Below, in pieces: positions 19,422-22,511 of a DNA stretch of 64,000 nt (positions are counted from its first letter, which is position 1; each line of letters opens with the position of its first letter). Below the pieces are notes generated by a model. It did no database searches, had not been told where the DNA came from, and was given only the letters and a program-made list of their open reading frames with translations. This DNA comes from Candidatus Dormiibacterota bacterium (GTDB lineage Bacteria > Vulcanimicrobiota > Vulcanimicrobiia > Vulcanimicrobiales > Vulcanimicrobiaceae): positions 1 to 64,000 of the forward strand of contig DATKRS010000011.1 of the NCBI GenBank assembly GCA_035532035.1, read 5' to 3'. Both the position numbers and the translations under genes were made by a program.

Positions 19422-19552
19422 ATAGCGCGTAGCCGCGCTTTGCGCTCGGAGCGTTAACCGGCCTCGACGCTTGCAGCCTCAAGCAGGGGGGGCTCGTTTT
19501 TCTCTGCCATCCCCGATCGGTGTTGACCGCAAGGACTATACTAAGAATGGAT

Positions 19553-19730
19553 ACCTCGCTAGGTGAGGCGTCCACGCAATACACAGGCCGCTGCCCGGAA
19601 ACGTCGAGAGACGCCAATCGGGTGGACCAGGCTCCGCCGAAACAAGGCGATGCCTAATGCGGCTGAGGAGCACGACTCCCGGGGGGACGTGCATCTGCGA
19701 AGGTATTGCGCTGGAGTGCGAAGAGCGGAA
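19553..19730 (+). promoter_or_regulatory. M-box (ykoK) Mg2+ riboswitch aptamer
   Basis: The sequence matches the M-box consensus as remembered from Bacillus subtilis mgtE in order and wording. TAGGTGAGG starts at 19560, GCTGCCC and the AACGTC-type loop at 19590-19602, AGACGCCAAT at 19609-19618, and TAATGCGGCTG at 19635-19645. The helix is closed by CTCGCT (19555-19560) against AGCG (19724-19727), and by GCAATAC (19576-19582) against GTATTGC (19703-19709). M-boxes sense Mg2+ and generally shut off Mg2+ transporter genes when Mg2+ is high. A TATACT (19537-19542) just upstream is a candidate -10. Downstream come a soluble MgtE-like protein and an Nramp-like transporter. Confidence 0.88.
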
Positions 19731-19870
19731 TCCCCCAAGGTGTGCTACGGCACGCGGGGGCTGACGCGACGAAGCAATCCGGTGCGAGACCCGAGCAAAA
19801 CTCTACGGTGCGTGGTGCCAAAGCTCAGGGAGCGAATGAGGTAGGCCCTTCGGGACGCTTCTTCTTTCGC

Positions 19871-19905
19871 ACCGGCCGCCGGCGAGGCAGCCGGTTTCGT
19901 ATTTT
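19871..19905 (+). terminator. Putative expression-platform terminator of the M-box
   Basis: ACCGGC (19871-19876) pairs with GCCGGT (19890-19895), followed by TTCGTATTTT. This lies between the aptamer and the ribosome binding site of the first gene, where a Mg2+-dependent terminator is expected. The T run is imperfect and the stem is 6 bp, so the assignment is tentative. An alternative pairing partner for the left arm (an antiterminator) was not resolved. Confidence 0.45.
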
Positions 19906-19923
19906 GAAAGGGGGTGAGCAGCG

Positions 19924-21225
19924 GTGGCCTTTACCGAAGGATTCATCTCGGAACTCGTGGGGCGCAAGGCGACGATCGACGATCTGCCGATCGGCAAGGT
20001 AGCCGATTTCATCGTCAACAAACCCGACGACACGTTCCCCCACATCGATGCGCTCGTCGTGAAAACCGCGCAGGGCAGACGCATGGTCCCTATCGAGCAG
20101 GTCGCAGATATCGATCGCAACGGCACGGTCGCCCTGACGATGACGCCGAAGGACCCGGCTCCGCCTGACGGCGAGACGCTCTACCTCGTCTCGGATTTGC
20201 TCGACAAACAAATCGTCGACGTCGACGGCCGAAAAGTCGTACGCATCAACGACATCGAGATCGCGAGTACCGCCGGCCGGCTACGCGTCATCGCCGCCGA
20301 CGTCGGCGTCAGCGGCCTGTTACGCCGCCTGGGCTTGCGCTCCATCGGCAGACGCCTTACGCGGGATATGTATCGCGGCGCACCGCGCTCACTCATTCCG
20401 TGGAGCTCCGTCGCGCCGATCAACGAGAAGAGTCCGGCGCAGGTGCGGCTCGCGGTCAAGCAGAGCAAACTTTCGCGACTCCACCCGTCGGAGCTGGCCG
20501 ACATCATCGGCGACCTCTCGAAGCGCGAGGCACTCGCCATCGTCCAGCAGCTCGACGACGAGACCGCCGCCGATGCCTTCGAGCATCTCGAACGCGACGT
20601 GCAGAAATCGCTCATCGAGGATATCGGCACGGAGCGTGCGGCCGACATCATCGAGGAGATGGACGCGGACGACGCCGCCGATCTGCTGGCGGAGCTCCCG
20701 GAGGAAGACCGCTCCAAACTCCTCGGCGAGATGAACACGTTCACCGCGCACGAGTTGCGCGAGCTGGCGAAGTACCCCGAAGACAGCGCCGGCGGCCTGA
20801 TGACGACGGACTTCGTATGGATCTATCCGCATCGCACGACCGAAGCGACGATTCGCAAGATCCGCGAGATCGCGCCGAACTCAGAGTTCATCTACTATCT
20901 CTACGTCGTCGACAAGCGCGACCGGCTGCTCGGCGTGATCTCGCTGCGCGCGCTGCTGCTCGCACTGCCGACGGCCTTCATCGAGCGCATCATGGAAACC
21001 GACGTCGTCACGGTCTCGCCCGAGACGCCCGCCGTCGAGGTCGCGGCGACCATCGCGAAATATGACTTGCTTGCCGTTCCCGTCGTACACGAAACGGGCG
21101 AGCTGCTCGGCATCGTCACCGTCGACGATGCGATCGACGCGATCATGCCGCATGAGATGGCGCGGCGGCTTCCACGCTTCACGCGCCATCACAAGCCGCA
21201 CGCCGCTACGCCAGAGAACGGCTGA
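19924..21225 (+). CDS. Soluble MgtE N-domain/CBS protein with PRC-barrel-like N-terminus
   Basis: This 433-residue protein has a GTG start preceded by GGGGGTG. Residues 1-165 contain two beta-rich PRC-barrel-like repeats (GRKATIDDLPIGKVADFIVNK and DKQIVDVDGRKVVRINDIE). Residues about 187-290 match the MgtE superhelical N-domain (LHPSELADIIGDL, DAADLLAELPEEDR, GLMTTDF). Two CBS motifs follow (about 300-345 and 355-415, ending GIVTVDDAIDAIM). The transmembrane channel domain of MgtE is absent, so it is a soluble sensor, not a channel. It directly precedes and overlaps the Nramp-like transporter and sits under an M-box, indicating a role in gating or regulating Mg2+ uptake (inference). Confidence 0.88.
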   Translation: MAFTEGFISELVGRKATIDDLPIGKVADFIVNKPDDTFPHIDALVVKTAQGRRMVPIEQVADIDRNGTVALTMTPKDPAPPDGETLYLVSDLLDKQIVDVDGRKVVRINDIEIASTAGRLRVIAADVGVSGLLRRLGLRSIGRRLTRDMYRGAPRSLIPWSSVAPINEKSPAQVRLAVKQSKLSRLHPSELADIIGDLSKREALAIVQQLDDETAADAFEHLERDVQKSLIEDIGTERAADIIEEMDADDAADLLAELPEEDRSKLLGEMNTFTAHELRELAKYPEDSAGGLMTTDFVWIYPHRTTEATIRKIREIAPNSEFIYYLYVVDKRDRLLGVISLRALLLALPTAFIERIMETDVVTVSPETPAVEVAATIAKYDLLAVPVVHETGELLGIVTVDDAIDAIMPHEMARRLPRFTRHHKPHAATPENG

Positions 21226-22511
21226 TGACTCGGCGGCGCACCGGCATCCGGCAGCTGCTGATGTTCCTCTCCATCATCGGCCCCGGCATCATCACAGCCA
21301 ATGCCGACAACGACGTCGGCGGCATCGCCACGTACTCTCTGGCCGGCGTGCAGTTCGGGTACTCGCTCCTATGGCTATTGATCCCCGTCACCGTCATTTT
21401 GTACGTGGCGCAAGAGATGGGCGCGCGGATGGGCGTCGTCACCGGCAAAGGCCTCGCCGATCTGATTCGCGAGAACTTCGGCGTCAAGGTCACGTTTTGG
21501 GTACTCTTGCTCTTCGTTTTGGGCGACCTCGGAAATGTGGCGGCCGAGTTTTCGGGCGTTTCGTCATCGGCTACGATCTTCCACGGGTACGCGCGCTTCA
21601 TCTCGCCGCTCTGGCTCGTTCCGGTGGTCGCCATCTTTGTGTTCACCACCGTCACGAGCAATAGCCGCAAGGTGGTGGAACGCATCTTCTTCGCTTTTTG
21701 CGCGGTCTACCTCGCGTACATCGTGAGCGGGATCATCGTTCATCCGAACTGGCACGACGTGCTGCGCGGCACGTTCCTGCCGACGTTCACGCCGTCGAAG
21801 GCCTACTTCTTGATGATCGTGGGCGTCATCGGCACGACGATCGCGCCATGGCAGCAGTTCTACATCCAGGCGGCCGCGGTGGAAAAGGGCGTCCCGCGCG
21901 ACGACTACAGGTTTACGCAATTGGACGTTGCCATCGGGTCGATCAGTTGCGACATCGTCGCTTTCTTTATCATCGTGGCGAGCGCTGCGACGATTTATGT
22001 CTTCAATCAAGCCCACGTCCACCATCACCTCGTGATCTCACTGCCGAGCGACGTCGCGATAGCGCTCCAGCCCCTCGCAGGAAGGTTCGCGTCGCTGCTC
22101 TTCGCCATAGGCTTGCTCAACGCCGCGATGTTCACGGCCTCGATCCTCCCGCTGTCGACCGCGTACTATGTCTGCGAAGCATTCGGATTCGAGCGGGGCG
22201 TGGAGCTGCACTTCAAGCAGGCCCCAATCTTCTACAGTCTGTACCTCGCGTTCATCCTCATCGGCGCCGGCGTCGTGTTGCTGCCGGGAGCGCCGCTGCT
22301 CGGAATCATCTTCTATTCGCAGGTCATCAACGGCGCGCTCCTGCCGATCGTGTTGTTCCTGATGCTGCTCCTCATCAACAACAAGCGTTTGATGGGAGCG
22401 TGGACGAACAGCCTCGCGTTCAACGTCATCGCATGGGCCACTGTGATCGTCGTCGCGACGCTCACGTTGATCTCGATCGTTACGTCGCTGTTTCCTTCGC
22501 TGGTCTCGTAG
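21225..22511 (+). CDS. Nramp-related divalent cation transporter, probably Mg2+
   Basis: This 428-residue protein has 11 hydrophobic helices. It keeps the first Nramp Asp (D28 in TANADNDVGG), but the DPGN motif reads D-N-D-V. Helix 6 has IAPWQQ, in which the MPHN motif is changed to A207-P-W-Q. In canonical Nramp the helix-6 Met confers transition metal selectivity against Mg2+/Ca2+; the Ala here fits Nramp-related Mg2+ transporters. Its ATG overlaps the upstream TGA (ATGA), so it is coupled to the MgtE-N/CBS protein and lies under the M-box. The last 32 bases overlap the opposing GGDEF gene. Confidence 0.88.
   Translation: MTRRRTGIRQLLMFLSIIGPGIITANADNDVGGIATYSLAGVQFGYSLLWLLIPVTVILYVAQEMGARMGVVTGKGLADLIRENFGVKVTFWVLLLFVLGDLGNVAAEFSGVSSSATIFHGYARFISPLWLVPVVAIFVFTTVTSNSRKVVERIFFAFCAVYLAYIVSGIIVHPNWHDVLRGTFLPTFTPSKAYFLMIVGVIGTTIAPWQQFYIQAAAVEKGVPRDDYRFTQLDVAIGSISCDIVAFFIIVASAATIYVFNQAHVHHHLVISLPSDVAIALQPLAGRFASLLFAIGLLNAAMFTASILPLSTAYYVCEAFGFERGVELHFKQAPIFYSLYLAFILIGAGVVLLPGAPLLGIIFYSQVINGALLPIVLFLMLLLINNKRLMGAWTNSLAFNVIAWATVIVVATLTLISIVTSLFPSLVS

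Follow-up and report, generated by a model that had tools for sequence, protein, structure and literature searches.

An NrmT-type operon with an M-box leader, a soluble MgtE-like sensor and a predicted magnesium transporter in the phylum Eremiobacterota

M-box riboswitches ahead of Nramp-related transporter genes, named NrmT, were described by Shin et al. in 2014 (PMC4072509). Mg2+ uptake was shown for two C. acetobutylicum members, which work without a partner protein, but most NrmT genes adjoin a homologue of the cytosolic domain of the magnesium channel MgtE, for which feedback gating from the cytoplasm was proposed. The A. capsulatum NrmT fully rescued a Mn2+-import mutant and restored Mg2+ import only at millimolar Mg2+; co-expression of the adjacent MgtE-like gene brought no gain in Mg2+ rescue, and the role of this partner was left open (PMC4072509). 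A solved member of the transporter family, EleNRMT from Eggerthella lenta (7qia; eLife 2022, PMC8806188), transports Mn2+ too. The changes specific to NRMTs are helix-1 Asn to Gly, helix-6 Ala to Thr and Met to Ala, and His to Trp; swapping these residues into a classical Nramp does not confer Mg2+ transport (PMC8806188). In the part of the literature that we searched, we found no published work on the sensor partner beyond these two papers. The arrangement of M-box, sensor and NRMT considered below has therefore been known since 2014 and is not a new discovery.

The window, i.e., the whole 64,000-nt stretch analysed (positions 1 to 64,000 of contig DATKRS010000011.1), belongs to a soil-dwelling member of the Eremiobacterota with a 2.25-Mb genome assembly, 96% complete. 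All features of the locus lie on the forward strand, in the order M-box leader, soluble sensor gene, Nramp gene. The sensor-like protein of 433 amino acids is encoded at 19924-21225 from a GTG start at 19924, behind a ribosome-binding site read from the sequence at 19910-19917 (GGGGGTGA); the Nramp-related magnesium transporter (NRMT) of 428 amino acids follows at 21225-22511. A cupin gene precedes this pair and a PAS-GGDEF gene on the opposite strand follows it, which makes an operon of just these two genes most likely. An earlier note on this DNA had reported an M-box-type aptamer, then a protein with the MgtE N domain and two CBS motifs but no channel helices, whose gene overlaps that of an Nramp-like transporter. 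All three readings hold: a covariance-model search of the window with RF00380 (M-box) returned 76.2 bits (gathering threshold 44; E 9.6e-15), Pfam assigns MgtE_N (96.8 bits), two CBS domains and a PRC barrel to the sensor, and its stop codon shares one base with the Nramp start (TGATG). In the closest sister locus, L007, from a MAG named Candidatus Eremiobacterota, the transporter is 95% identical. Like the NrmT operons described earlier (Ca_c0685, Ca_c3329 and A. capsulatum; PMC4072509), the locus combines most likely co-transcribed genes for a homologue of the MgtE cytosolic domain and for an Nramp-related transporter with an M-box. It may differ from them in the PRC barrel of the sensor, and does differ in a 131-nt peripheral insert in the aptamer and in its host, an Eremiobacterota lineage in which neither CorA nor the MgtE channel was found.

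The transporter matches Pfam PF01566 (Nramp) with 285.7 bits, and its nearest solved relative is EleNRMT (308 bits, versus 89 for MntH). D30, G33, T204, A207, W209 and Q366, which form its metal site, correspond to D55, G58, T224, A227, W229 and Q379 of EleNRMT, so that all of the published NRMT changes are found in the window protein (G33, T204, A207, W209), with the helix-1 Asp kept as D30. Alignment confirmed A207 at the position of the helix-6 Met, as the earlier note had it; in 28 of 49 readable relatives this residue is Ser. The DPGN counterpart, read there as D-N-D-V, had to be corrected: those are residues 28-31, two out of register, and it is D30-V31-G32-G33 that aligns with D55-A-G-G58 of EleNRMT. 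Unlike the window protein, EleNRMT has Gly in place of D28 ahead of N-D, and Asn at the second His position, where the window protein has Ile. The same genome encodes two further Nramps, both candidate Mn2+/Fe2+ importers, at L003:1411-2679 on the reverse strand (motifs DDDPSG/TTITPY) and at L004:1363-2634 on the forward strand (DTEAGS/GAVIMPW).

In the sensor protein, the PRC barrel (residues 85-160) precedes MgtE_N (186-287) and the two CBS domains. Profile searches found the MgtE channel domain (PF01769) neither in this protein nor anywhere in the genome, and the sole hydrophobic peak of the sensor falls inside a CBS domain. Its AlphaFold model (23-sequence alignment; pLDDT 79) was matched by Foldseek to the MgtE cytosolic domain 2yvy, with a TM score of 0.83 by target length. 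In MgtE, the acidic ligands are D91/D247 for Mg4, D226/D250 for Mg5, D95 for Mg6 and E59 for Mg7 (PMC5882242). Five of these six are identical in the sensor (D91, D95, D226, D247 and D250) and E59 is replaced by Asp. The alignment to MgtE stops at about residue 253, beyond which only a short tail of low model confidence follows; the plug helix with E258/D259 is absent, as judged from the sequence alignment to MgtE and the model. The sensor thus shares the N domain, both CBS domains and the Mg4-Mg6 acidic ligands with the MgtE cytosolic domain (2yvy, 2zy9) but is a separate soluble protein with an extra PRC barrel and with neither plug helix nor channel; that is, the Mg2+-sensing part has been kept and the original output part lost. 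In MgtE it is the plug helix, with Mg2/Mg3, that shuts the pore, so that any gating by the sensor would have to work in another way. L006, from the same genome, has another MgtE_N match, which was considered as a second sensor and set aside, its frame reading FliF-like by eye.

The M-box is the only one in the genome. The automatic Rfam match covers 19548-19722 and closes P1/P2 with 19683-19722, which leaves many non-standard pairs. In sister locus L007, RF00380 spans 242 nt including a 73-nt local insertion, and scores 116.1 bits with no non-standard P1/P2 pair. The aligned relatives have in common a 3′ arm, TCTACG..GCGTGGTGCCAAAGCT..GAGGTA, whose window copy lies at 19801-19847 and with which 22 of 22 P1/P2 pairs are standard. 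The P1/P2 covariation score over 18 relatives was unmatched by 500 shuffles, a control that ignores the relatedness of the 18 sequences, and was lost when the arms were slid against each other. Moreover, the distance from M-box to sensor, 201 bp with the Rfam end, becomes about 76 bp with the corrected one, back in the normal range (the 35 remaining sensor-NRMT units have -2 to 115 bp). Rfam's 3′ arm is therefore misplaced in the window, and the true aptamer extends from 19548 to 19847.

A 131-nt insertion that folds as stacked hairpins (19670-19800) expands the loop of a small hairpin at the periphery of the aptamer, the site of the 73-nt insertion in L007. The window insertion is single copy in the genome and its core hairpin occurs only once in the window, which rules out a dispersed repeat; a second known RNA was likewise discarded, as no other Rfam family matched it at E up to 10, save a chance antisense DnaX match. 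The size of the insertion, and a score far under the 104-140 bits of most relatives, could mean that the M-box was broken by it and persists as a non-switching relic. We regard this as very improbable: the low score follows from the misplaced 3′ arm, pairing is fully standard with the right arm, the core sequence of the M-box is conserved, and the loop that holds the insertion varies freely in length among relatives. This loop seems to tolerate insertions. In L012 (3489-3509), the same variable hairpin holds a short palindromic repeat (CTTCGACAGGCTCAGGATGAC), which also occurs once in L028. Automatically assigned M-box boundaries may be wrong wherever the hairpin loop is expanded.

A possible -10 box, TATACT, can be read at 19537-19542, with a predicted transcription start at about the first aptamer base; a consensus scan found no sigma-70-like promoter. 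Between the aptamer and the ribosome-binding site, a terminator-like hairpin with a T-rich tail (19871-19905) is the probable expression platform. An equivalent hairpin is present in eight of nine leaders of the sensor-NRMT type, and this conservation makes termination of transcription at high Mg2+ the likely mode of control. An antiterminator formed by a 9-bp complement between the insert (19779-19787) and 19866-19874 was dropped, since the pairing, seen by eye in the window and in L007, could not be spotted in the same manner in other relatives.

The earlier note had proposed surveying whether sensor and transporter co-occur. We screened 118 genomes of the phylum, 93 of them from class Eremiobacteria, sorting sensors from match coordinates and leaving full-length MgtE channels and CBS-only matches out of the sensor counts. 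Of the 118 genomes, 97 have the soluble sensor together with an NRMT and the remaining 21 have neither; none is discordant, and this holds where the two genes are unlinked. Such obligate co-occurrence over the phylum makes a shared function very likely. Three of the 97 genomes (G014, G033, G037) carry a more distant NRMT-like clade: the helix-1 motif is N-D-A-G-G in G014 and G033, helix 6 of G014 reads T-P-Y, and the sensor relatives of both have MgtE_N plus CBS according to Pfam. In class Eremiobacteria, 52 sensors stand directly ahead of NRMT (gaps of 2-132 bp) and 32 sensor genes lie away from NRMT and have no M-box. The class has 104 M-boxes, 36 ahead of a sensor-NRMT pair, 31 directly ahead of NRMT, seven ahead of NRMT across a gap of 0.9-2.3 kb, and seven ahead of a sensor with no adjoining NRMT; two of these last seven, in G054 and G089, are probably due to the contig ending there. 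In G047 and G115, one strong M-box belongs to the sensor and another to NRMT, while the M-box of the sensor is weak (33-45 bits) in G016, G080 and G086. NRMT genes of several relatives (G045, G057, G069, G088, G092, G093, G103 and G117) show one in-frame stop in the search output, despite a preceding M-box.

Profile searches of the 96% complete window assembly found neither CorA nor an MgtE channel. A P-type ATPase importer may nonetheless be present: the best match to the MgtA model reached 326 bits, under its cut-off of 611. No MgtE channel scored above cut-off in any of the 93 class genomes and CorA occurs in 14 of them; 75 of the 88 class genomes with NRMT, the window genome included, have neither. 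Phylum-wide, CorA or MgtE is present in 19 of 97 NRMT genomes versus 16 of 21 others (Fisher 1.3e-6, taking genomes as independent and complete, with shared ancestry and assembly gaps uncorrected). The sensor-NRMT pair probably replaces the usual magnesium channels. With neither CorA nor MgtE channel found in its genome, the window organism probably takes up Mg2+ mainly through NRMT. The 118-genome concordance and the 75 of 88 genomes with neither channel make Mg2+ import the likely activity of the transporter, as predicted from sequence. A rival reading, along the lines put forward for A. capsulatum, is that it imports mainly Mn2+ and that the sensor responds to this ion. The predominant Mn2+ transport of the A. 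capsulatum NrmT (PMC4072509) and the Mn2+ transport by EleNRMT (PMC8806188) would fit; yet the A. capsulatum gene lacks the M-box that the window operon has, the window genome already encodes two further Nramps but no detected CorA or MgtE channel, and genomes of the phylum tend to have either NRMT or the channels, all of which leaves a Mn2+ role improbable.

We thus favour, with some reservation, the reading that the window operon serves magnesium uptake, is of the NrmT type and is subject to feedback by Mg2+ at two levels. At high cytoplasmic Mg2+, the M-box would fold, the downstream intrinsic terminator would form and transcription would stop; at low Mg2+, the operon would be read, and importer and soluble partner made. 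The importer would be an Nramp-type Mg2+ carrier, probably proton-independent. For its partner, the MgtE cytosolic sensor joined to a PRC barrel, we consider it most likely that Mg2+ is held between the N domain and the CBS domains; the compact, Mg2+-bound form would throttle the importer. Much the same had been put forward in the earlier note, namely an MgtE sensor paired with an unrelated Mg2+ transporter under control at RNA and protein levels: the M-box, the NRMT metal site, the Mg4-Mg7 acidic residues and the 118-genome concordance argue for it, although the pairing itself was already described in 2014 (PMC4072509).

The putative gating is likely, but in a Mg2+ operon the sensor might instead leave the transporter alone and act elsewhere, e.g., as a protein of Mg2+/nucleotide signalling or as a chaperone. 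Adenine nucleotides are frequent ligands of CBS pairs. MgtE has been solved with ATP (5x9g), nothing in MgtE corresponds to the PRC barrel, and 32 sensor genes of the class are remote from NRMT and M-box alike; furthermore, the C. acetobutylicum transporters work without a partner and co-expression had no effect for A. capsulatum (PMC4072509). Against this, the concordance with NRMT in 118 of 118 genomes and the 52 closely adjoining pairs point to one shared task, and we consider a non-gating sensor rather unlikely, if less so than a Mn2+ system.

Some M-boxes that adjoin neither NRMT nor sensor stand ahead of Nramps from another clade (about 510-570 amino acids, motif VMVGDNDAGAF), distinct from the NRMT clade of the window. 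The genes of this second clade, each with its own M-box, are at L091:962-2611, L093:575-2224 and L099:943-2598 and, on the reverse strand, at L096:372-2087 and L105:416-1945. In addition, a family of about 616-654 amino acids with a signal-peptide-like start and no Pfam match directly follows M-boxes, alone or ahead of NRMT. Members sit between M-box and NRMT at L021:206-2053, L030:3052-4950, L031:2766-4664, L032:3103-4950 and L036:2652-4502, and behind an M-box with no adjoining NRMT or sensor at L090:630-2510, L104:346-2271 and L095:638-2599, these three having about 630-650 amino acids; another is at L062:1984-3168. The signal-peptide-like N-termini suggest outer-membrane barrels, and the family may possibly represent porins of the outer membrane whose expression a Mg2+ riboswitch controls; an AlphaFold model of one such protein had a pLDDT of 29. 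OprB-family porins (PF04966) are encoded between M-box and NRMT at L034:3534-4907 and after a second-clade Nramp in an M-box operon at L093:2199-3050. A broader and decidedly tentative view is that the detached MgtE sensor would work in trans as a subunit that, depending on Mg2+, inhibits a transporter of the unrelated LeuT fold, and that in Eremiobacterota one M-box family, found also on the second Nramp clade and the porin-like proteins, would set Mg2+ entry at both membranes.

We found no prior report, in the part of the literature covered, of the corrected aptamer, the exceptionless co-occurrence of sensor and NRMT, the separate M-box units or the complementarity with CorA and MgtE. The concordance between sensor and NRMT offers clear candidates for addressing the role of the MgtE-like partner. 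Our results suggest that Eremiobacteria would import Mg2+ mainly via Nramp-type carriers, and not via CorA or MgtE channels.
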